The position numbers and the translations under genes were made by a program. This document shows positions 483 to 39,115 of a stretch of 46,460 nt of DNA, piece after piece; the stretch's first letter is position 1, and each line of letters starts with the position of its first letter. The notes beneath the pieces are model-generated. The model saw only the letters and a list, made by a program, of their open reading frames with translations, had not been told where the DNA came from and made no database searches. The stretch spans positions 1 to 46,460 of the forward strand of contig JAIYAU010000051.1 in NCBI GenBank assembly GCA_027488865.1, read 5' to 3'. Source of the DNA: Cytophagaceae bacterium (GTDB lineage: Bacteria; Bacteroidota; Bacteroidia; Cytophagales; UBA9547).

Positions 483-3400
483 TTATTGTTTAATCACCTT
501 TATTATTTCTGTTTTATTGAGATATGATACTTTTAGTATGTACAACCCCGTGGATAGTTCAGTTCCTACAATAATTGATTCACCCGTTAATCCAGTTGTG
601 GTGCAAACCAATTTACCTTGAATATTCATAACTTGTATGATTACAGGCACATTGGTTGTTTCCAACACCATAAGATGGGTTTGATCTTGAAAAGCAGTTG
701 CGGTAATGAGGATTTTATTCTCTATATCTAAGTTTTCAACTGTTGTGGGCAAAGGCTCCAAAAATTCAATATTACCTAGGTTAAATCCTGACTTTTCAAC
801 CAAAATCTTAATTTGTTGTTTACCTGAGGTTAAATTAATATTTCCTAAATCAATTGTTTTCCAACCATCCCAATCTCCGGTAGCGCTTACTTTAGCTTTG
901 TCTATTACCTTAATGCCATCCACCAAAACAGAAAGCTCGCCTCCATATCCTGCAACACGCGCTTTAACCAAAAAATTACCTGTGCGTGCCGCTTGCACGG
1001 TATAAGACATCCATTCGCTGGCTTCGAGCCATGCTACTATCGGTTGCTTTTCAGAGGTAGAATACTGTATATCTACCCCATCGTTGCGATAATACCAACC
1101 ACTATTCCACGCCGTATAGTCGCCGCCTGCAGCTCCAAATTGTGTAGTTCGATAGATAACATCATTGTAGGCTAAGCCATTTTTGCCCTCGTCATAATGA
1201 GCTGCTAAAATCGAGGCGGGTAATGTAACCAACTGAAACGGCTTAACTTCATTGTTTTGATCAGGAAACAAAGCATTTAAATAACCTTTGTTAAGACTAC
1301 AATTATTAAGTTTAACGTTATTAACCAACTCGTTTAAAATCTCTTGGCCAGTGGTGGCAGAAGGCTTGGTTCCTTCCCCTTTAATAAATTGAGCCAATAA
1401 AGACCAATTTTCAGGTTCTTTAAAAGCCATGGCACTCGAAACGCTACCCATCTTTTTATAAGGCCATACTGCCCAACCAATATTGTGCTTGTTCATTAAT
1501 TCTATCGTTTCTTGAATCCAATGATTGGAATTTTCACCAAATTCTCCCAGCCAAATTGGCACATTTTGTTCATCTCGCATTTTAAAAATAAAATTAAGCG
1601 AACCGTCATTTACGTCATTCCAATATTTATGAAAACTATAGGACATGTTATTGTCCCATTTAGGGGTCATGCCAGTATAATCATTGGCGTAACTATTGCC
1701 TTCAATAAAAATATGGTGTTTTTTATCTATGGAACGAATAGCCATAGTAATATCCTTCATCAGATTAAACAACAGCACATTACCTGGTATAGTCCAATTA
1801 GTTTCATTGATTAAATCATATCCTGCTACAGTTTCTTCTTCGGCGTATCGCCGTGCAAATTCTTTCCACAAGGCTATAGTTTGGGTGCGATTCTGAGCAC
1901 TAGTAAATGTGCTACCTGGGGCATCTTCCCACAAGGATGATTGACCTGCTATGTAATCACTAATATCGCCACTATTTTGACCACCTGGAGCGGCATGTAA
2001 ATCTAATATCACATACATTTTGTTTGCTTTGCACCATGAGATGATTTGATCAACCAAAGCAAACCCATTTTCTATGAAAAGGTCTGGTTTACCTAACTCT
2101 GTGAAGAGGTTGTAATGCATAGGCAATCGGATCGAATTAAAGCCCCATTTTGCAAGACTATCAATATCTGCTTTAACTAAAAAGTTAGTTTTGTAATCTT
2201 TATAAAACTTTTCAGTATTAGCTGCGCCCACCACTTCTGTTAATTTTTGTTTAATAACATATTGATAACCACCTCCTAGATTAAGCATATATCCTTCTTG
2301 CACCATGTAGTTCCCAATATTAATGGCACGAATTTGATAGTTACCATTGTCGTTAACGATATTTTTGCCCTCAGCACGTATAAATCCTAATCCCGTAGTA
2401 GATTTTATGGATTCGCTTACAGTAAAATAATTGAGATTAAACCCACCTTTTGTAGCGATTACTTTAAGATTGTGATTTCCTTTGGTTAGTGATATTTTTC
2501 TTTGAAGTGTGGTATACCAATTTTGCCATCCACCTGTGATAGGCAAGGTAATTTCGGTAGCTTTAATCCCGTCTATTTCCAAAACTAAGGTTCCACCATT
2601 TCCCAAACTTGCTGAACGAAAATCGAAATCATAGTTTCCTGTATTTGTAACTGTTACGTTGTATTCCAGCCAATCCGCATTGTCTATGTAGCCAACATTG
2701 TCGCTACCACCTACGTCGCTAGTAGGTTCTAATTGAACTCCATTCATATTGCTATAATCTTCTGCTTGTATAATACCTGGCACTATCAGTGGTGAGGCTA
2801 TTTTTTCGCCATAACCTCCAACTACCACCTTTACTTTGGAGGGAAAAGTGCATTGAATTGTGGACGACTGGTCTCCTACGTCATCATAGGCAAAGGCATA
2901 AGTTTGGGACAAATAGCTGATGTCAGTGTCATGAAAAAATTTAACATATTGATTATGTGGAAAATAATTAAAAAATCGGTTCGAATCATGATTGTATTGA
3001 ACCTCTCCTGTAGGTGCATTGGTGTGTATTGCGTGCCTATTAATAGCTGCACACACTTGGGCTTGAATCATAAGGTCCTCATCGTATTTTGCACTTGGTG
3101 CAGCGGCATAAGTAGTAGCTAGCGCACCTGCGCCTTCAATAGCATCTTGTGTGGTAGGTTTTCTATAAATGGTGGCTTGAGAATTATCTGCAGGATCGTA
3201 AAAATCAAAGCGGTCACCGGTTACCCTTCCCCTCCAAGTGCCTCGATCGCCAATATTTAACAATAAATCTTTGGATCGATAGGTATTCCAAATATTATTT
3301 ATGTAAGTTGCAAAATAGTCTTTATGAGGCCCATTTGATTTAAAATCATCAATTTTTGAAGGTTGTTCAATTATTGGCTCGTTATCTAATGAATGACGCT

Positions 3401-4109
3401 TCACTAGTTTACAACCAAAAAAGGGAGCATCTACTTTTTGAGGCCAAGCATTTAATATAGTTTGATGAGAAATTAATTCACCTATTTTTTTATTAACATC
3501 AGGCGAAGCTCCACTATTTACACGTGCATTATAGGAGGCTTGATAAGAGGCATTAATCCCGCCGGTATATCCGGTGACCTCCAGTCCCATTGGATATTGG
3601 TAAGCATCTACCCTACTAGTATTAGTCCACAATCCTGCATTTCCCCAAGTAAGCTCTACCAGTTCCCATCTTATTCCGTCGTTCGGATCATTGGAATTTT
3701 GCAGATTGGCGCCAGCATACCCACCATTTTTATGAAAATAAATATACATAGGAGATTTAAATGATATCAATATTCTACAACCAAATAGCCCATGGGGAAT
3801 CTGGATGGTTTTATTGGGTATATCACTTAATTTATAAAACATGTTCGCGTATTTGTTCTTGCCATCGGGTGTGTTGGCCCAAGCAGGACCAGGCATTGTA
3901 TTATTGGCATACTCCATATATTTAAGTTGGCTTTTGGACATGTCCATCCACACATTACCCATTCCAGGATATTGACCCACTAAACCAATATAAATTTCGT
4001 TGTCTTTGTACCTAGAACTATTCTCAAAAACGTAAGGAAGTGATTGTGCTTTGCCACTAAAGATTGAACATATATAAAAGAAAATCGGTCCAAGTAATAT
4101 AATTTTCAT
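483..4109 (-). CDS. Secreted GH64-CBM6-GH5-CBM6-like beta-glucanase with T9SS sorting domain
   Basis: This 1208-residue modular enzyme probably hydrolyses beta-1,3-linked and related glucans outside the cell. Residues 1-22 form a signal peptide. Residues ~24-435 resemble GH64 beta-1,3-glucanases; E152 and D168 keep the 16-residue spacing of the catalytic pair of the Streptomyces GH64 enzyme. Residues ~444-565 are a CBM6 (AEDYS start, DWLEYNV, GGWQNW). Residues ~570-930 are a GH5 barrel with acid/base E769 (NETNW) and nucleophile E856 (WLGEFGE). Residues ~960-1120 are a second CBM6-like domain (EWMSYTV, DWDGWKTI), and ~1125-1208 a T9SS C-terminal domain ending KVIKQ. Two catalytic domains of different families in one chain suggest cooperative attack on a mixed or fungal-type glucan; that target is inference. 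It lies 100 bp downstream of another GH5 gene on the same strand, with a hairpin in between. The ATG at 4109 is followed directly by the signal peptide. Confidence 0.88.
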   Translation of the reverse strand: MKIILLGPIFFYICSIFSGKAQSLPYVFENSSRYKDNEIYIGLVGQYPGMGNVWMDMSKSQLKYMEYANNTMPGPAWANTPDGKNKYANMFYKLSDIPNKTIQIPHGLFGCRILISFKSPMYIYFHKNGGYAGANLQNSNDPNDGIRWELVELTWGNAGLWTNTSRVDAYQYPMGLEVTGYTGGINASYQASYNARVNSGASPDVNKKIGELISHQTILNAWPQKVDAPFFGCKLVKRHSLDNEPIIEQPSKIDDFKSNGPHKDYFATYINNIWNTYRSKDLLLNIGDRGTWRGRVTGDRFDFYDPADNSQATIYRKPTTQDAIEGAGALATTYAAAPSAKYDEDLMIQAQVCAAINRHAIHTNAPTGEVQYNHDSNRFFNYFPHNQYVKFFHDTDISYLSQTYAFAYDDVGDQSSTIQCTFPSKVKVVVGGYGEKIASPLIVPGIIQAEDYSNMNGVQLEPTSDVGGSDNVGYIDNADWLEYNVTVTNTGNYDFDFRSASLGNGGTLVLEIDGIKATEITLPITGGWQNWYTTLQRKISLTKGNHNLKVIATKGGFNLNYFTVSESIKSTTGLGFIRAEGKNIVNDNGNYQIRAINIGNYMVQEGYMLNLGGGYQYVIKQKLTEVVGAANTEKFYKDYKTNFLVKADIDSLAKWGFNSIRLPMHYNLFTELGKPDLFIENGFALVDQIISWCKANKMYVILDLHAAPGGQNSGDISDYIAGQSSLWEDAPGSTFTSAQNRTQTIALWKEFARRYAEEETVAGYDLINETNWTIPGNVLLFNLMKDITMAIRSIDKKHHIFIEGNSYANDYTGMTPKWDNNMSYSFHKYWNDVNDGSLNFIFKMRDEQNVPIWLGEFGENSNHWIQETIELMNKHNIGWAVWPYKKMGSVSSAMAFKEPENWSLLAQFIKGEGTKPSATTGQEILNELVNNVKLNNCSLNKGYLNALFPDQNNEVKPFQLVTLPASILAAHYDEGKNGLAYNDVIYRTTQFGAAGGDYTAWNSGWYYRNDGVDIQYSTSEKQPIVAWLEASEWMSYTVQAARTGNFLVKARVAGYGGELSVLVDGIKVIDKAKVSATGDWDGWKTIDLGNINLTSGKQQIKILVEKSGFNLGNIEFLEPLPTTVENLDIENKILITATAFQDQTHLMVLETTNVPVIIQVMNIQGKLVCTTTGLTGESIIVGTELSTGLYILKVSYLNKTEIIKVIKQ

Positions 4110-4209: not shown

Positions 4210-7188
4210 TTAATTTTTTACAATTTTACTTTGATACCACTTCCCGTCCATTTTAAATCGGACAAGATAAATACCACTGTTAAGATTAGAACCTAAACTA
4301 AGCGATTGATTTATAACGCGTTCATCTACCAAAGACCCTTGAGCATCGTAAATATAAACTACTGAATTATTAACAGGAATGGTAACTACAAATTGTTCGT
4401 CAAATGGATTAGGTGCCACCATTACTTGTGCCTTGGGCAATTCTTCTGAAGCGTTAACACCACATTGTTTGATGTCTGTTGTTGGCTTAAGTCCTGTAGT
4501 GCCTCCAGCGCAAATATTACAAACATCAATTACAGCCGTTCCATTGGGTACTCCTGCACAATCCAAGCAGCTATTTTCAGTTTTACCACAGCCACAATTC
4601 CCTGGAGAAACTTTAAGTGGGTCATTTGGGCATAAATCACCAATTTTGGACACATAACCAAGCGGTTTCACACATGCCTTTAATACATTTTGTTCATCAC
4701 CTAATCCATCGTTATCTACATCAGCGTACCATGAAGTTTTTGAAGTTTGTATAACTTCGTATGCAGCAGAGGTGTCTTTACATCCGTTATTATCAGTAGT
4801 TTCTACTTTATATAAGCCAGCTGCATTTGCGCCAAAAGATTTTGTTGTTGCGATTTGAGCGTTGTTTCTTATCCAGTTATAAGAAGAAGCATCAGTTGCT
4901 GTAAGCTCCAAAGAACTGCCTTCACAAAACGAATTGGAAACGGCAGAAATTGTAGGCTTTGTGGTGGTAAGTATCGTGATTGTTTTGTTTTGTGATATTG
5001 CTTTACAACCATTTTTTACCTCAGTAACTTCGACCGTAAAAACACCTCCTTTATTGATGGTGATATTTGAAGAATTAGCATTTAGAATATTGACAGAGGC
5101 TAAACTCCATTGATACGTTAATCCTACACCAGTATTAGCAGACAAGGTTAAGCTATTGCCCTTACAAATGGTATTGGTAGGTGTGGTAATGGTAGCATTT
5201 GGCAAAGGTTGAACTGTTATTGTAGAAGGATTGGCAGTAGCTTTGCAACCATCAGCAAAAGTAATTTCTACTGTGTAAGCCCCTGATGTATTGACTGACA
5301 AACTTGAAGACCCAGCACCACTTACAACTGTATTCCCATTTTTCCAAACATAAGATACTGCATCGACTGCACTTGTAGATAATGTTACATTTTGACCCTC
5401 ACAAATTGATGTTTTGGGAGTGGTAATCGAAGCAGATTTTTTACAAGGTTCTTTAGCTATTGCCAGCCAATTGATATTAAATCCACCAGTTGAAATTCCT
5501 AGTCCTAAAGAATAACTACCAGCTGGCAAGTCTATTAACTTGGAAATAGTAGTCCATTTTTGCCATCCACCTGTATTTGGCACATTGAAGGTACCTAATT
5601 TAGTAAGCCCAGCATCTTTTTCTAGAGAGATAACACCCAAATTGTTTTCAGATGCCACTCTAAAAAATACTAAATATTTACCAGCTGTCGGAATTGTGAT
5701 TGGGTTGTAACTTAACCAATCACCAGTATCTAAGAAGCCAACGTTTGATAAGCCTTCGTTGCAAGTTTCTTGTTTAATACCAGACATCGCATTGTAGGAT
5801 TCAGCTTCAACTACCACTAGAGGATCTTGCTCAAGCAGAATTACAGTTGCGTTAGTTTGAGTAGCTAAATTTGAAGCAGCATTACCCCCTGTAGGTCGTA
5901 ATTCGGCTTTCCAACTGTATTTACCACCTTGTAAAGGAAGGTTACTTAAATTAACAACCACATCAACAGACTTCACCCCCTCTACTTGGCTTGTCGTACT
6001 AGCAATTACATTATTTAAACTATCACATAATGAAACAATTAAATCTCGCTTTTGAGTAACAGAGTAATTCACCTCTACTGTATAACTGCTTTTGGGCGTA
6101 GTTAAATTGGGCGAGTTCATATAAGTTATGCCCTCGCTTACTTTACCATAATCATAAGATTTCAAAATCCCTTTTACCAATGAACCAGACCAAGTAAGGT
6201 TGTTACTTGTCCAATTGCCTTGCGCGCTTGCTCCCGAGGTTAAGGCAGATGAGCCTTCTACCTTGTCGTTGATGGCCCAGTTACAGTGGCTTATATTATT
6301 TCTCTTTAAAAAATCAATCCAAGCGTTTGTTTCACCTTCATTTACAGCACCATCACCATTGGCGTTTACACTACCCCATTCCGTGGCGAATAAAGCAATA
6401 CCTTTATTTAAAGCATATTGGCATTTATCTCTATTAGCTTGCCCATGTGAACCACTGTAAAAATGAACTGTATAGGCAATATTACTTTTATTGATTGGGT
6501 CGTTGGCGGCGTCATCTACATTAGCAGACCAAAAAGGAGTACCAACGATAATTAAATTATCGGGATCGACAGCTCTAATGGCATTAATTACCGTTTCAGC
6601 ATAAGGTTTGATGGTATTACTCCACGAAACTTGAAGTGGTTCATTATAAATTTCATAAATTACATGAGGGTTTGAACCATAAGTTTGAGCCATTTCAGTA
6701 AAAAATGTAATTGCCTCGTTCGTGTATAAATGTGCATTATGACTATGCCAATCAATAATCACATACATGTTGTTGGCAATTGCGGCATCTACTACAGTTT
6801 TTACCTTGTTCTTGTTACTAGTTTTACTTGCCAGATATCCTCCCGGATCTTCTACACCCATTGCCGCCCTAACTATGGCTGAATTCCAATCATTCTTAAG
6901 CCAAGATACCACATTAGCATTGTAGTATTTTTCACCACCCCAGCCGTCATTACTCCAAAACAAACTATTGCCCGCAAAACTTACAGGGATACCATTTTTA
7001 TTAACAATTTTATTTCCAGTTACAGACAGGTTTCCGTTAATGAGAACAGGTTGTGCATAAGAAATTATAACTGTAGACATAAGAATCGCCATAAAAACAA
7101 TCGGTCTTTCATATTTTATTTGATATGAAAATGTTTTTATACATTGAATCCAAGCTTTGAACTTTTTGAGAAATAAGGATGCTTTCAT
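4210..7188 (-). CDS. Secreted GH5 endoglucanase with CBM6, Ig-like and calcium-repeat regions, T9SS cargo
   Basis: This 992-residue enzyme probably cuts internal beta-1,4-glucan bonds outside the cell. A long N-region precedes a hydrophobic signal at ~30-46 ending SYAQ. Residues ~48-345 are a GH5_2-like endoglucanase barrel with acid/base E183 (IYNEPLQ) and nucleophile E270 (FATEWGS). Residues ~350-455 are a beta-rich domain I cannot name. Residues ~458-581 are a CBM6 (VEAESYN, DTGDWLSY, GGWQKW). Residues ~582-817 hold three Ig-like units, each with a conserved cysteine pair. Residues ~818-903 carry a DVDNDGLGD calcium-binding, thrombospondin-3-like motif and a Cys-rich stretch common in Bacteroidota secreted enzymes. 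Residues ~916-992 form the T9SS sorting domain (PNPFDEQF, ending KIVKN). The start is kept at 7188 because the frame has a -7-like element upstream; a later ATG near residue 33 would give a shorter, more ordinary signal peptide. Confidence 0.88.
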   Translation of the reverse strand: MKASLFLKKFKAWIQCIKTFSYQIKYERPIVFMAILMSTVIISYAQPVLINGNLSVTGNKIVNKNGIPVSFAGNSLFWSNDGWGGEKYYNANVVSWLKNDWNSAIVRAAMGVEDPGGYLASKTSNKNKVKTVVDAAIANNMYVIIDWHSHNAHLYTNEAITFFTEMAQTYGSNPHVIYEIYNEPLQVSWSNTIKPYAETVINAIRAVDPDNLIIVGTPFWSANVDDAANDPINKSNIAYTVHFYSGSHGQANRDKCQYALNKGIALFATEWGSVNANGDGAVNEGETNAWIDFLKRNNISHCNWAINDKVEGSSALTSGASAQGNWTSNNLTWSGSLVKGILKSYDYGKVSEGITYMNSPNLTTPKSSYTVEVNYSVTQKRDLIVSLCDSLNNVIASTTSQVEGVKSVDVVVNLSNLPLQGGKYSWKAELRPTGGNAASNLATQTNATVILLEQDPLVVVEAESYNAMSGIKQETCNEGLSNVGFLDTGDWLSYNPITIPTAGKYLVFFRVASENNLGVISLEKDAGLTKLGTFNVPNTGGWQKWTTISKLIDLPAGSYSLGLGISTGGFNINWLAIAKEPCKKSASITTPKTSICEGQNVTLSTSAVDAVSYVWKNGNTVVSGAGSSSLSVNTSGAYTVEITFADGCKATANPSTITVQPLPNATITTPTNTICKGNSLTLSANTGVGLTYQWSLASVNILNANSSNITINKGGVFTVEVTEVKNGCKAISQNKTITILTTTKPTISAVSNSFCEGSSLELTATDASSYNWIRNNAQIATTKSFGANAAGLYKVETTDNNGCKDTSAAYEVIQTSKTSWYADVDNDGLGDEQNVLKACVKPLGYVSKIGDLCPNDPLKVSPGNCGCGKTENSCLDCAGVPNGTAVIDVCNICAGGTTGLKPTTDIKQCGVNASEELPKAQVMVAPNPFDEQFVVTIPVNNSVVYIYDAQGSLVDERVINQSLSLGSNLNSGIYLVRFKMDGKWYQSKIVKN

Positions 7189-7221
7189 ATTGAAATAGTT
7201 ATAGTTATTATTTTTATATTA

Positions 7222-7255
7222 CAAATTTAGTCCTAGTTATTGGTCTTATTGGAAA
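7222..7255 (-). promoter_or_regulatory. Candidate Bacteroidota promoter of the GH5 endoglucanase
   Basis: On the minus strand TAAATTTG (7229-7222) matches the -7 consensus TAnnTTTG exactly. A TTTC, a one-base variant of the -33 TTTG, lies 22 bp upstream (7255-7252). It would give a 5' UTR of about 30 nt before the ATG at 7188. It sits in the 164-bp spacer shared with the divergent receptor gene. Confidence 0.45.
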
Positions 7256-7352
7256 GAGTTAAAGAAATAATGTTATAAAATTTATAATTTAAGTGCAATT
7301 TTTTATACTTTTATACTCATTGATAATCATTTGATAACTAATAAATTAGAAC

Positions 7353-9161
7353 ATGTTTAGGTATCTATTGTATTTGCTTCTATACGCATTAGTTTTTAAT
7401 CTATTTGCTTCCGACACCTTGTCCATAAACGGGATAAATCAAACTGAAATTTCACGACCTTATTTGAAATATAGAACTGATAACCTTATTAATGAAAAAT
7501 GGCGTGTGATTAATCAGGAAAACACCATTTTAAAGCCAAAGCATATTTTTGAGGGTGAAGCTATCTTTAAAAACAAAACCACCACAAGCTTGGTATTCGA
7601 GTGGGCTGACAATAAAATAGAAACCTTGCAAGCTTGCATAACAAATGCGAATGGAGACACGGTTGAATCGGTGAACTACCATGATGCACAAGGCTATAAC
7701 AATCAATTATTCATAAAAAACCAAGTATTGATTTTACATAACCCCGACACTAATGAAACTTATAAACTTAACTATAAAATTTATTCACACAATCCAGTTT
7801 ATGTTATTAGCTGGGCTCGCAATATTGATGCATTATTAAACAGATTTATAAAAGAATATACCTGGTATGGGATTTTTTCGGGCATGATATTAATTGTGTT
7901 CTGTTTAAATCTATTGTTTTATGTCGTTTTGAGAAATAATACCTTTTTGTGGTATGGTCTGTACACCATTTCACTTGGCTTTTTTCATTGGTCATACATA
8001 GGGGTGGGATTTCAATGGATATGGCCTAATCTGGTCCATTGGAATCGATACGCGTATATTTATTCATCATTTTTAATGTTAAGTTTTCAATTTATATATT
8101 TTAGATTTTACATTAATAACTTATTTCAAATCAACAACTGGTACATTATAAGCATTATAATGATCAGGTTTGTAATATTATTAATGTCCATTCTTAATAC
8201 GTTTTTTATAGAATGGTATTTTCTAATCGACTTTGTCACCTTCTCTTACCTCTTATTTTTATTGATTAAGATAAAAATATTTAATACCCTTCATGGTAAA
8301 ATGTTTATAACTTCAATCAGCTTACTATTAGTGGCTTATCTGGTTTTTATCCTGGCATATTATCACTTTATTATTAGCAGTTTCTGGGCCTATAACTCAT
8401 TAGCTATGGGAGGTACATTGGAATTACTCGTAGGTCTTTTGGCATTGGCACTGCGATACAAGTATTTAAGTGATGAGAAAACGAAATTACAACGATCTGA
8501 AATTTCCTCTCTAACAGAAATATCCAATCTAAAAGACCAACTCATTGTTGAAATAAGAGATAAAGAGAGGATTCAAAAGGATATAAATAAAGATTTGGCT
8601 ATCAAAATTGCCGAACGAACAGAAGAACTTGCGCTAAAAAACAAAGAATTAGAGGAGTTAAATTCCAAATTGAATGAATTTAGCAGCTCGCTAGATAGAA
8701 AAAACTGGACCTTGAATAAAGAGCTCTCCACGGACAGGATAAAATTAATGTGGGGTAAAAAAATTAGTTTCAAGGAATTTCAATTAATGTTTCCATCAGA
8801 TAAACAAGCATTTAGGTTTATAGCAGAACTAAAATGGCAAGACGGATTTAATTGTAAAAAATGTCAATCAAGTGAATGGATAGAAGGATTACAGCTACAC
8901 TCAAGAAAATGTTCGATGTGCAGGTATGAAGAATCTGTAACTGCTAACACCCTCTTTCATGGTATAAAGTTCCCAATAATAAAGGCGTTGTACATTAGCC
9001 TGACCACCGTTCTTAAACGTGATTCTGTTACAGTAAAAGAAATTGCAACTGAAATTGATTTACGGGAAGCTACGGTGTGGGCATTTAGAAAAAAGACCTT
9101 AGTAAAAATAGAGAACGCCAATAACCAGCATGGAGAGATATTAAAATACCTAGTAAATTAA
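7353..9161 (+). CDS. 7TMR-DISM-type membrane receptor fused to an IS1595 transposase DNA-binding module
   Basis: The 602-residue protein appears to be a one-protein membrane sensor and DNA-binding regulator. Residues 1-20 are a signal sequence. Residues ~40-165 form a periplasmic beta-domain of the DISMED2 type. Residues ~170-368 hold about seven membrane helices of the 7TMR-DISM kind. Residues ~372-458 are a long charged coiled coil. Residues ~472-545 match the zinc-ribbon start of IS1595-family transposases: FQLMFPSD, ELKWQDGFNC, ribbon C501-X2-C504-X15-C520-X2-C523, then TANTLFHGIKFP. Residues ~556-590 form the HTH that follows the ribbon in those transposases (VTVKEIATEIDL). The protein ends there, so the DDE nuclease domain is absent: a domesticated DNA-binding half, not an active transposase. 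DISMED2 domains are thought to bind carbohydrate-like ligands. The gene is divergent from the GH5 gene with a 164-bp spacer, which suggests control of glycanases; that role is inference. Confidence 0.8.
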   Translation: MFRYLLYLLLYALVFNLFASDTLSINGINQTEISRPYLKYRTDNLINEKWRVINQENTILKPKHIFEGEAIFKNKTTTSLVFEWADNKIETLQACITNANGDTVESVNYHDAQGYNNQLFIKNQVLILHNPDTNETYKLNYKIYSHNPVYVISWARNIDALLNRFIKEYTWYGIFSGMILIVFCLNLLFYVVLRNNTFLWYGLYTISLGFFHWSYIGVGFQWIWPNLVHWNRYAYIYSSFLMLSFQFIYFRFYINNLFQINNWYIISIIMIRFVILLMSILNTFFIEWYFLIDFVTFSYLLFLLIKIKIFNTLHGKMFITSISLLLVAYLVFILAYYHFIISSFWAYNSLAMGGTLELLVGLLALALRYKYLSDEKTKLQRSEISSLTEISNLKDQLIVEIRDKERIQKDINKDLAIKIAERTEELALKNKELEELNSKLNEFSSSLDRKNWTLNKELSTDRIKLMWGKKISFKEFQLMFPSDKQAFRFIAELKWQDGFNCKKCQSSEWIEGLQLHSRKCSMCRYEESVTANTLFHGIKFPIIKALYISLTTVLKRDSVTVKEIATEIDLREATVWAFRKKTLVKIENANNQHGEILKYLVN

Positions 9162-38130: not shown

Positions 38131-38177
38131 TTATTGAATAAAATTAATGCAAGGCGGCGTTAGCAATCAAAATAAGA
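38131..38177. repeat. 47-bp direct repeat, right copy
   Basis: Partner of 36458-36504. It contains the stop codon and last ten codons of the pentameric channel gene on the minus strand, followed by a stretch identical to the arsC stop region although arsC itself is 1.6 kb away. Confidence 0.9.
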
Positions 38178-39115
38178 TTGATGATGAAATAAACCACAAT
38201 GGTAATTATTGATCCATACCTATCAAATTTCAACGAACGTTTAAGGTTATTTTTACCATATAGCAATAAACTAATAGAAGAAATGAGTAAAATAATGAAA
38301 ATAAATATGAAAGTGGTGGTATGGAGAGCATCTACTAGCGTAAAAGTGGAACTTTCGGGCAATAAGGAATCGATAATATATTTATTACCAACTGCTGCGA
38401 AGAGTCCGCCCACAGGCAAGGAAAATTTAGGTTCTGCGTGCTCGGCATCCACCAAAAAGGCAATGCAAGAAATAGAAAACGCGATATACATGCCCACAAA
38501 TAACTTTAGAAAGAGACCTAACGCACTACGATCAATATCGATATTTATGTTAAATGCAGCATAATGAGAAACTTTAGAGTCTAAACTGACATCACCAAAG
38601 TCGGTAAGGTAGTCATGCTGGTTCGTAGAAATAGCGATTTTGTTAATCCTCCATCCGTCAATGGTAAAATCTGGGTCAAAATGTTGGCCAGTAGTATCTG
38701 CCTTAAATACAAGTGAGCGCGTATCGTATTTACTGTTTTCTACTTGTATGGATAAAAATTGTTTGTCAAATGGGTAATCTGCCACCTTCCAACTTTGTTT
38801 CATTACACATTTAAGTTTCATTAACACCCATACCTCTCCTGTAGCCGTATCTCTTGACACTATAGATTCTAAAATTTCAAGATCCTTTGCATTAGGCACT
38901 TCTACAGAATTAGCAAAATCAAAATCAGGATTTTTGTACTTCATCCATATCCAAAATCTTAAAGTATACTCCTTATCCCTAAAGTTTATATCATGTAAAC
39001 TCATTACATAAGTCCCTAGGCGTACAGTATCTGGCTCTAAGGAGGAACCATTTTGCGCAGAACTTGAGATAAAAGAAAAAAGTGTTACAAAAAATACAAC
39101 CAAATATCTTGACAT
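38144..39115 (-). CDS. Pentameric ligand-gated ion channel homologue
   Basis: The 323-residue protein resembles prokaryotic pLGICs such as GLIC and ELIC. A signal peptide (to ~20) precedes an extracellular beta-sandwich with the TLRFWIWMKY strand and the Pro-loop core ADYPFDKQFL (P115, D117), which lacks the Cys-loop disulfide as expected in bacteria. Four membrane helices follow: M1 ~200-222, pore-lining M2 ~231-250, M3 ~258-286 and M4 ~301-321. Ligand and ion are unknown. It starts 14 bp after the stop of the HtrA gene on the same strand, so the pair is probably co-transcribed. The final codons lie in a 47-bp direct repeat. Confidence 0.82.
   Translation of the reverse strand: MSRYLVVFFVTLFSFISSSAQNGSSLEPDTVRLGTYVMSLHDINFRDKEYTLRFWIWMKYKNPDFDFANSVEVPNAKDLEILESIVSRDTATGEVWVLMKLKCVMKQSWKVADYPFDKQFLSIQVENSKYDTRSLVFKADTTGQHFDPDFTIDGWRINKIAISTNQHDYLTDFGDVSLDSKVSHYAAFNINIDIDRSALGLFLKLFVGMYIAFSISCIAFLVDAEHAEPKFSLPVGGLFAAVGNKYIIDSLLPESSTFTLVDALHTTTFIFIFIILLISSISLLLYGKNNLKRSLKFDRYGSIITIVVYFIINLILIANAALH

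Follow-up and report, generated by a model that had tools for sequence, protein, structure and literature searches.

A seven-helix membrane receptor with an IS1595-related C-terminal domain as a putative one-component regulator of glycan-use genes in Cytophagales

The gene at positions 7353..9161 (forward strand) of contig JAIYAU010000051.1 (GCA_027488865.1, Cytophagaceae bacterium) raises the question of what a membrane receptor of the 7TMR-DISM type does with a C-terminal domain that resembles part of a transposase. The window, by which we mean the whole stretch of DNA that was analyzed, comprises 46,460 nt, and within it the gene forms one uninterrupted ORF of 602 aa, as supported by Pfam and a structure model. 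The initial annotation had placed a periplasmic DISMED2-like domain, about seven membrane helices, a coiled coil and a zinc ribbon plus helix-turn-helix (HTH) in this single protein, and that description was borne out: sensor, membrane part and DNA-binding domain lie on one chain without phosphorelay domains, as judged by Pfam, the model and hhalign.

The AlphaFold model of the protein (pLDDT 82.7, pTM 0.61) begins with a hydrophobic helix (residues 2-16; 7356..7400, on the forward strand like all features of this gene), inferred to be a probable signal peptide. A periplasmic DISMED2-like beta-sandwich follows (residues 23-157; 7419..7823), recognized by the family profile, by Foldseek and by the PF07696 matches of other family members. 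The seven transmembrane helices (residues 158-about 370; 7824..8462) were modelled at 158-193, 196-216, 228-255, 263-281, 283-307, 313-336 and 349-about 370, the last boundary being our own estimate, and this region matched PF07695 (7TMR-DISM_7TM) with an E-value of 2.4e-20 and 73.8 bits against a cut-off of 29 (residues 168-367). The seventh helix is continuous with a coiled-coil connector (residues about 371-466; 8463..8750), both being part of one long helix (349-440) in the model, and the junction between coiled coil and DNA-binding domain (residues 433-466) was modelled with low confidence (pLDDT <50). The C-terminal DNA-binding domain (residues 473-602; 8769..9158), related to IS1595 by hhalign, blastp and the model, reached a pLDDT of 90.2. 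It contains a zinc ribbon, C501-X2-C504-X15-C520-X2-C523 (residues 481-525; 8793..8927; Pfam and invariant cysteines), and an HTH (residues 561-588; 9033..9116) with model helices at 561-568 and 572-588, in the same order as in transposases.

The initial annotation had expected all three families to be hit above threshold, which held for the 7TM domain only when the window protein was scanned alone: Zn_ribbon_IS1595 matched at E 1.7e-4 and 21.9 bits (residues 481-525), below the Pfam gathering score of 25.4, and DISMED2 gave no Pfam match at E<=1. When the genome was searched in six frames with the ribbon model, five of the six members of this receptor-ribbon family encoded by the 4.3-Mb window genome scored above the cut-off, the window copy among them with 27.7 bits. 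Among the other five members, 7TM and DISMED2 passed in all (Pfam, protein scan); the ribbon passed in L004 and L005, fell short by 0.1 bit in L006 and scored lower in L002 and L003. Further, in an alignment of the window protein with 58 members chosen from 66 full-length ORFs, matches at E<=0.001 were obtained for 7TM in 59/59, DISMED2 in 57/59 and the ribbon in 50/59. The profile built from these 59 members matched the periplasmic DISMED2 domain of RetS (3jyb, 9jpe, 2xbz) with E-values of 6e-6 to 9e-6, and Foldseek with the modelled sandwich retrieved the RetS domain 3jyb (E 1.9e-5, TMt 0.70), making it the best solved relative by both approaches.

By Pfam and hhalign, the intracellular output domain of this receptor is the C-terminal ribbon/HTH; no histidine kinase, receiver or AraC-type HTH was matched in the window protein by Pfam or NCBIfam at E<=1. 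The proposed match to the N-terminal part of IS1595 transposases, in order, was supported by hhalign, which aligned ribbon and HTH over 119 columns (probability 99.9, E 1.9e-32), and by a tree; blastp of the domain against a transposase gave 32% over 117 aa. The catalytic DDE domain was indeed absent, as PF12762 (DDE_Tnp_IS1595) had no Pfam match in the window protein at E<=1, unlike L028, L040 and L192, which matched it; 79 residues separate C523 from the end of the ORF. In the tree, which omits domains shorter than 85 aa as well as near-duplicates, 80 fusion rows and 5 short rows split from the 28 others (23 transposase-type rows, nine of them from genome G397, plus 5 short ones) on a branch of length 1.04 with support of 100/100. 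By these sequence comparisons, the fusions are one group apart from all sampled transposase-type rows. For the isolated DNA-binding domain, Foldseek found no PDB match at E<=0.001, and the best hit of its profile against PDB sequences had an E-value of 0.025.

Transposase pieces are common in genomes, and IS1595 transposases occur in relatives of the window genome (L028, L029, L040), which would suit a functionless fusion, decaying or accidental, between a receptor and a piece of a transposon. We regard this reading as scarcely tenable, contradicted as it already is by recurrence and conservation. Many divergent full-length copies exist, the four cysteines named by the initial annotation are invariant in 40/40 and 59/59 aligned members, and synteny is conserved across genera. 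No long matching inverted repeats surround the gene: between 6900 and 9700 only short or imperfect pairs were detected (14-28 nt, 75-93%; no shuffled control), and when the transposon ends at L028, L040 and L045 were compared with the operators, a perfect 33-nt inverted repeat was present around L028 only. A frameshift or assembly join that would make receptor and ribbon separate genes is likewise very unlikely, since separate full-length copies exist in many genomes.

Relatives of the C-terminal domain were detected at E<=1e-5 in 85 of the 241 genomes and 39 of the 103 genera of Cytophagales sampled, and among the best 150 matches 137 sit in ORFs 582-1001 aa long that represent at least 26 genera. 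The suggested survey for the same domain order found it recurring in many genomes and genera, beside glycan genes; the scan of named loci kept 80 of 100 relatives. Genome contigs scanned with a single protein gave 11 pattern matches and no relative, and phage records searched with L081 gave two partial matches (31% and 18% covered). The four annotated copies inspected carry the sole label '7TM diverse intracellular signaling domain-containing protein', so the regulator that serves many polysaccharide loci of Cytophagales may have been overlooked under this name.

The genes next to the receptor point to a role in glycan use. Divergently from it lies a gene for a GH5 cellulase-family enzyme with CBM6 and a T9SS sorting tail (4210..7188, reverse strand) and, 100 bp behind that, one for a GH64 beta-1,3-glucanase with CBM6 and GH5 (483..4109, reverse strand). 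Both genes, and their divergent layout, are kept in two other genera (Cytophaga aurantiaca and genome G002), and they are the probable targets of the window receptor. Across the family, a co-oriented susC lies directly downstream in 51 of 80 receptor loci (42 of the 58 loci longer than 12 kb, which were query-selected). A SusC+SusD pair occurred within about 10 kb in 11/20 receptor regions vs. 2/19 control regions 100 kb away, one of the 20 controls not existing. In group f13, counted without genome G220, the receptor is followed by susC in 18/18 loci (10 directly, 6 behind a GH3 gene and 2 behind a small ORF). These counts are not independent, because many loci are related, and enzyme families not represented among the roughly two dozen reference proteins used to label genes by blastp were missed. 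No carbohydrate enzyme was found among the scanned neighbours of L079 and L081, two of the six members of the window genome; a GH18 gene lies about 6 kb from L079. The Flammeovirga copy (L048) lies next to genes for ribokinase and sugar transport, and SusC/SusD are encoded about 5 kb away.

Receptor-adjacent promoters carry two direct repeats with clade-specific spacing of 64-66, 69, 73-77 or 80-81 bp. In the window, putative operator site 1, AATGCGTATA (7381..7390, reverse strand), lies inside receptor codons 10-13, and putative site 2, AATGAGTATA (7312..7321, reverse strand), is intergenic, 69 bp from site 1 and in direct orientation; there are no binding data for either. The spacer at 7189-7352, which the initial annotation had proposed as the target, thus contains one site, and the second falls just inside the receptor gene. 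A Cytophaga aurantiaca pattern, allowing up to 2 mismatches, had a single match in the 4.3-Mb window genome, at 7312-7389, and two in G002, the better one at the orthologous locus. In five promoter comparisons the shared spaced pair was equalled by shuffles in 0-3 of 300 cases, and the HTH segment EIDLREATVWAFRKKTL is identical between the window and C. aurantiaca proteins. Site 1 lies in coding sequence in the window, C. aurantiaca GH64 and G002 promoters, and its conservation may be partly coding because it overlaps the codons of the conserved LYAL residues. By plain alignment, the window promoter resembled the C. aurantiaca GH5 promoter no better than chance (175/500 shuffles), and nothing resembling the divergent promoter was seen between the two GH genes of the window. 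Across 21 genomes, 11 exact GCGTATA pairs with spacers of 56-72 bp were counted (2 for the reversed pattern); two of the 11 are at a receptor locus, both in C. aurantiaca, and the other nine were left unread.

At the susC loci, the two best motif sites were 63-67 bp apart in 39 of 51 receptor-susC gaps (all 51 met the minimum length of 150 bp), against a shuffled mean of 2.1 and a maximum of 6 in 50 runs. When gaps were held out, the pair was recovered in 16-24 of 26 (five splits) vs. 0-1 of nine susC promoters without a receptor, a small control set of mixed lineage. The 73-77-bp spacing was found in 17/17 gaps of f13 (17 of its 18, L160 being omitted), and that of 80-81 bp in 6/6 gaps of f19. 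The motif model from the 51 gaps detected a pair neither at the window operator nor in the four f13 gaps scanned, and among three f19 loci scanned only L114 matched; each clade therefore needs its own motif, and the idea of a single motif common to all clades was abandoned. The GH18-linked paralogue L080 and its relative L092 showed no spaced repeat in common.

A transcript feature, such as a leader or small RNA, could also account for a fixed spacing upstream of susC. That the repeats are an RNA element rather than protein-binding DNA is nevertheless highly improbable in our assessment: folding five repeat-to-repeat stretches as RNA yielded z-scores of -1.66 to 0.29, the inter-repeat stretch has no visible conservation in f13, and site 1 of the window sits in the divergent receptor gene. 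The repeats were picked out through their association with these same promoters, without DNA-binding data, and could serve another regulator; other nearby regulator genes were outside the analysis. Zinc ribbons can also bind protein, and the receptor might thus be a glycan sensor in which the ribbon/HTH is a mere protein-protein or structural module, the repeats belonging to another PUL regulator. This is quite unlikely in our view, given that ribbon and HTH are both retained in transposase order, that the repeats are far commoner in receptor-adjacent gaps than in the nine receptor-free susC promoters and that repeat motif and spacing vary with receptor clade.

The one-component transmembrane regulator suggested by the initial annotation is supported by architecture, transposase relation and glycan linkage, with DNA binding remaining an inference. 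Based on what was computed (architecture, homology, the single group of fusions, gene linkage and conserved spaced repeats), we consider it likely that the protein is a membrane-embedded one-component regulator whose IS1595-derived domain binds paired sites and activates glycan-use genes. The periplasmic DISMED2-like domain would bind a glycan fragment, and the inferred ligand of the window copy is most likely a beta-1,3-glucan or related beta-glucan oligosaccharide. The seven membrane helices and the continuous coiled coil would relay the change to the ribbon/HTH domain, which, membrane-tethered and probably as a dimer or dimer pair, is inferred to bind the two direct repeats; dimerization is itself an inference. 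In the window, 69 bp would separate the bound sites at 7312-7321 and 7381-7390, and the bound receptor would activate the divergent GH5-CBM6/GH64-GH5 genes, the sign of regulation also being inferred. The receptor may in addition damp its own expression, because site 1 lies in its first codons.

With the same architecture, the regulator might instead work after proteolytic release of its C-terminal part, for which the low-confidence residues 433-466 could serve as a cleavable linker. We deem release unlikely. In the model, TM7 continues without a break into the coiled coil (helix 349-440), and the connector residues R422, T423, D448 and L454 are invariant in 59/59 members, as expected for conformational signalling. 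We prefer action while tethered, by inference, to release from the membrane.

More tentatively, and at somewhat less than an even chance, a single IS1595 domestication founded a major undescribed class of Cytophagales PUL regulators with clade-fixed repeat spacing (about 65, 69, 75 and 80 bp). In that combined proposal, the receptor would contact the promoter directly, with no phosphorelay or sigma/anti-sigma partner, and two-site promoter capture at the membrane would be a relic of the transposase habit of holding two ends together. If the regulator reading itself is right, a seven-helix receptor has acquired the DNA-binding half of a transposase as its output, regulator-operator pairs are predicted in many genera, and ligand, regulon and membrane-tethered DNA capture can be tested directly in bacteria that degrade algal and plant polymers and can be cultured.

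Membrane one-component regulators are not new in themselves. Those of the ToxR/CadC type, with sensor and DNA-binding domain in one protein, have a single helix and an N-terminal winged HTH, whereas the window receptor has seven helices and a C-terminal ribbon-HTH. SusR is a membrane-anchored PUL regulator that senses periplasmic oligosaccharides. The HTCS of Bacteroidota PULs are likewise membrane-anchored and sense periplasmic oligosaccharides, according to the part of the source available (PMC10766802); unlike the window protein, in which no such domain was found, they contain kinase, receiver and AraC domains. The initial annotation knew of no described system of this kind. A 7TMR-DISM + ChiS-domain architecture from proteobacterial genomes is in print (PMC8092284), so joining a 7TM receptor to a DNA-binding domain at its C-terminus is not in itself a new idea. 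The ChiS family also joins a sensor and a C-terminal DNA-binding domain in one protein; the ChiS domain is described as an HTH variant in a trihelical bundle, and the available part of that article mentions neither zinc ribbon nor transposase (PMC8092284). In the open-access literature, no paper was found that pairs 7TMR-DISM with a zinc ribbon or with polysaccharide utilization, or that joins 7TMR-DISM, transposase and DNA-binding; nothing was found on a C. hutchinsonii 7TM regulator or on Zn_ribbon_IS1595, nor, as far as titles and the beginnings of abstracts go, on a domesticated IS1595/zinc ribbon receptor. In the literature searched, we thus found no description of the transposase-derived domain, of its PUL linkage or of the paired sites. 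IS1595/ISXO2 transposases share the N-terminal ribbon and HTH with the window receptor, which, unlike them, lacks DDE_Tnp_IS1595 and matching terminal inverted repeats. DISMED domains are predicted to bind carbohydrates (PMC6107284) and RetS has been reported to respond to mucin glycans (PMC7695008), as far as the accessible portions of these sources go. The 7TMR-DISM receptors RetS, LadS and RgsP share the DISMED2 periplasmic domain and the 7TM core with the window receptor; they signal through histidine kinase or PAS/GGDEF/EAL domains, whereas the output of the window receptor is a DNA-binding domain.

The receptor-regulator gene (7353-9161, plus strand) reads as one intact ORF of 602 residues. 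Pfam detected its 7TMR-DISM membrane core with an E-value of 2.4e-20 and an IS1595 zinc ribbon at 1.7e-4 (21.9 bits, under the curated 25.4), while DISMED2 was not found in this protein by Pfam. These doubts about the ribbon and DISMED2 were settled by the relatives: at E ≤ 0.001, the 7TM model was matched by all 59 aligned members, DISMED2 by 57/59 and the ribbon by 50/59. A profile of the 59 members also matched the periplasmic domain of RetS (3jyb, 9jpe and 2xbz; E 6e-6 to 9e-6).

The AlphaFold model of the protein (pLDDT 82.7, pTM 0.61) comprises an N-terminal helix, a beta-sandwich (residues 23-157), seven membrane helices, the seventh of which continues into a coiled coil as far as residue 440, then a stretch of low confidence (433-466) and, C-terminally, a domain at 473-602. 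When the whole model was compared with the PDB by Foldseek, the RetS periplasmic domain was matched at E 1.9e-5 with a TM-score of 0.70 (target length), and weaker matches included the sugar-binding modules CBM6, CBM35 and CBM61. The top-ranked match was human WLS (Wntless, 8tzs; E 1.1e-5), with a TM-score of only 0.26-0.31 and an rmsd of 15, followed by GPCRs at weaker E-values. Elsewhere in the window, a 323-aa protein (38144-39115, minus strand) matched Neur_chan_LBD, of pentameric ligand-gated channels (E 1.2e-6).

The C-terminal domain was compared with IS1595-type transposases. Profile-profile alignment of 40 members against nine such transposases covered 119 columns (probability 99.9, E 1.9e-32) and spanned the ribbon and then the HTH, an order common to receptors and transposases; the window domain is 32% identical to transposase L028 over 117 residues. 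A DDE domain is present in L028, L040 and L192. It is absent from the window receptor, as the initial annotation had claimed, and with neither this domain nor matching terminal repeats at the gene, its identity as a transposase was ruled out.

A tree was built from 113 domains: 80 fusions of receptor and ribbon-HTH, 23 transposase-type entries and 10 short entries. In it, the fusions and five short entries were split from the other 28, namely the 23 transposase-type (nine from genome G397) and five short ones, by a branch of length 1.04 supported at 100/100. Four of the five short entries on the fusion side (L023, L034, L044 and L057) begin at a contig edge. The tree program counted six changes for the label 'fusion' since the short entries carried a separate label of their own. 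On the simplest reading, a transposase DNA-binding half was joined to a receptor once, and the fusion then spread. That the transfer ran from transposon to receptor is an inference, made because IS1595 elements are widely spread; midpoint rooting is no proof of it.

Also inside the fusion group is L191 (genome G395; L218:1194-1607), a stand-alone 137-aa ribbon-HTH protein without receptor part, possibly through secondary loss. G397, a genome of the same class, carries ten scattered IS1595-type transposase homologues (L209-L217). The nine compared are 42-87% identical and 304-332 aa long; by eye, the catalytic motif region is degenerate, without VDExxxGG, and the DDE_Tnp_IS1595 cut-off is still passed by three of the four scanned. 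These homologues may reflect the same transposase group having been domesticated a second time, as soluble proteins. An IS1595-type element in a relative of the window genome (L028:958-1967) has a perfect 33-nt inverted-repeat pair flanking the transposase.

The window genome encodes six full-length members and three further 7TMR-DISM proteins without ribbon, whose C-termini read as histidine-kinase-like. Across Cytophagales, the C-terminal domain was matched at E ≤ 1e-5 in 85 of 241 genomes, which belong to 39 of the 103 genera sampled. The best 150 matches in the order comprise 137 in long ORFs (582-1001 aa; at least 26 genera) and 13 in ORFs that are shorter or cut off at an edge; matches beyond these 150 were unclassified and may include transposases. 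Named carriers include Cytophaga aurantiaca, Algoriphagus, Echinicola, Cyclobacterium, Roseivirga, Fulvivirga, Marinoscillum and Mongoliibacter, with plasmid copies in Persicobacter, Aureibacter and Flammeovirga. G081, a genome from the genus of C. aurantiaca, gave four C-terminal-domain matches. In a phylum sample, the profile was matched at E ≤ 1e-10 in 52/395 genomes, and outside Cytophagales the majority of matches were ORFs of transposase length. Fusions outside the order were found in G483 and G374; both adjoin SusC and SusD, and that of G483 also GH5 and GH2.

Divergent from the window receptor lie a GH5-CBM6 gene (4210-7188) and a GH64-CBM6-GH5 gene (483-4109). In C. aurantiaca, the GH5/GH64 pair adjoins, in swapped order, a receptor 70% identical to that of the window; in genome G002, it stands in window order beside the N-terminal half of a receptor. 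Other members of the window genome lie near a GH18 (L080), a CE2/polysaccharide-deacetylase protein (L082) and a GH9 enzyme (L083), and no carbohydrate enzyme was found directly alongside L079 or L081 among the neighbours scanned. Of four copies on annotated plasmids, three belong to SusC/SusD/GH loci and one adjoins ribokinase and sugar-transport genes.

Region surveys bore out the earlier prediction that the fusion recurs in several genera near glycan genes. A SusC and SusD pair was present in 11 of 20 receptor regions (13 genomes) vs. 2 of 19 control regions, taken 100 kb from receptors on the same contigs. In receptor clade f13, the receptor precedes susC in 18/18 loci read (10 directly, six via GH3, two via a small ORF). 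Among 80 loci from named carriers, co-oriented susC follows immediately downstream in 51; of the 58 loci longer than 12 kb, 42 have direct co-oriented susC, 45 SusC and SusD, and 49 any PUL or GH label. These loci are inter-related and were picked by query similarity, so the counts are not independent draws. PKD, GH3, GH16 and GH5 occur among the enzymes near f13 and f19 receptors, and two f20 loci examined carry GH3 and a PF10091 protein, of a beta-1,2-glucanase family. The enzymes point to beta-glucans in several clades.

Paired elements recur in the receptor promoters. In f13, TTGTTTTTTA is present in all 18 receptor-adjacent gaps (model score 181 vs. 58-64 in six shuffled sets), and a second element, CGTGTGNNNTAAGYGTAT, starts 73-77 bp downstream of the first in 17/17 usable gaps. 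The two-element pattern, derived from 18 of 19 f13 genomes, gave 31 matches in 18 of these 19: 18 at the receptor, one upstream of a same-locus GH5 gene (G038) and 12 elsewhere, whose context is unread. The reversed pattern had no match in the 19 genomes. G220, the f13 genome outside the pattern's sources, has a match at its receptor. The second putative paired operator of G038, upstream of the GH5-CBM6 gene (L117 ~5777; G038:C2:156476), is spaced ~12 bp tighter than that at the receptor. In f19, TTTTTAARTG occurs twice, 80-81 bp apart, in six gaps. Across 51 gaps of the named loci, the motif GTTaTTaATGCGtgAA scored 256 vs. 73-87 in five shuffled sets, and its two top sites lie 63-67 bp apart in 39/51 gaps. 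In 50 runs with the remainder of each gap shuffled, this spacing was seen in 2.1 gaps on average and in 6 at most. With half-trained models (five splits), the pair was recovered in 16-24 of 26 held-out gaps vs. 0-1 of nine susC promoters without receptor.

The matrix from these 51 gaps did not find the window site. In C. aurantiaca, GCGTATA occurs twice, 69 bp apart, ahead of each of two GH genes; these are the only exact pairs with 56-72-bp spacers in that genome, and nine more occur in four other genomes (21 searched; context unread). Comparison of orthologous promoters placed putative operators in the window at 7381-7390 (site 1, AATGCGTATA, minus strand) and, exactly 69 bp away, 7312-7321 (site 2, AATGAGTATA). 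Allowing ≤2 mismatches, the C. aurantiaca pattern has one match in the window where 0.02 would be expected; chance extrapolates to ~2 matches per genome. The entire 4.33-Mb window genome has a single match, at the window promoter; G002 has two, the better at the orthologous promoter, and C. aurantiaca seven, the two perfect ones lying at the GH promoters. A pattern-free comparison recovered the same spaced pair in three orthologous promoters. Shuffles equalled the pair in 0/300 cases for the window vs. either C. aurantiaca promoter, for C. aurantiaca GH5 vs. GH64 and for G002 vs. C. aurantiaca GH5, and in 3/300 for the window vs. G002. In three cases (the window, C. aurantiaca GH64 and G002), site 1 falls within the receptor's first codons, and coding conservation may therefore contribute; at the C. 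aurantiaca GH5 promoter, both sites are non-coding.

With no kinase, receiver or sigma domain in its single chain, which runs from the sensor through seven helices and a coiled coil to the DNA-binding domain, the protein may act as a one-component regulator. Its DISMED2 domain would be a sugar sensor, given the RetS precedent and the CBM-like fold: the RetS periplasmic domain is described as carrying a carbohydrate-binding module, and RetS is reported to be responsive to mucin glycans (PMC7695008). The clade-fixed spacing of two direct sites hints at joint action by two DNA-binding units, perhaps a membrane-held dimer or pair of dimers. DNA binding, ligand, stoichiometry and sign of regulation are all inferred, none having been shown.

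No description of an IS1595-derived output, its PUL linkage or the paired sites was found in the open-access literature searched. The window protein belongs to the 7TMR-DISM receptors by its membrane core. A hybrid two-component system (HTCS) was ruled out, as kinase, receiver and AraC domains are lacking. For the signalling-helix coiled coil, one paper mentions HTH domains joined through it at low frequency (PMC1592074). By inference, the receptor works like membrane one-component regulators, and the nearest published analogue found is the ChiS family, which is reported to include a 7TMR-DISM plus ChiS-domain architecture (PMC8092284).
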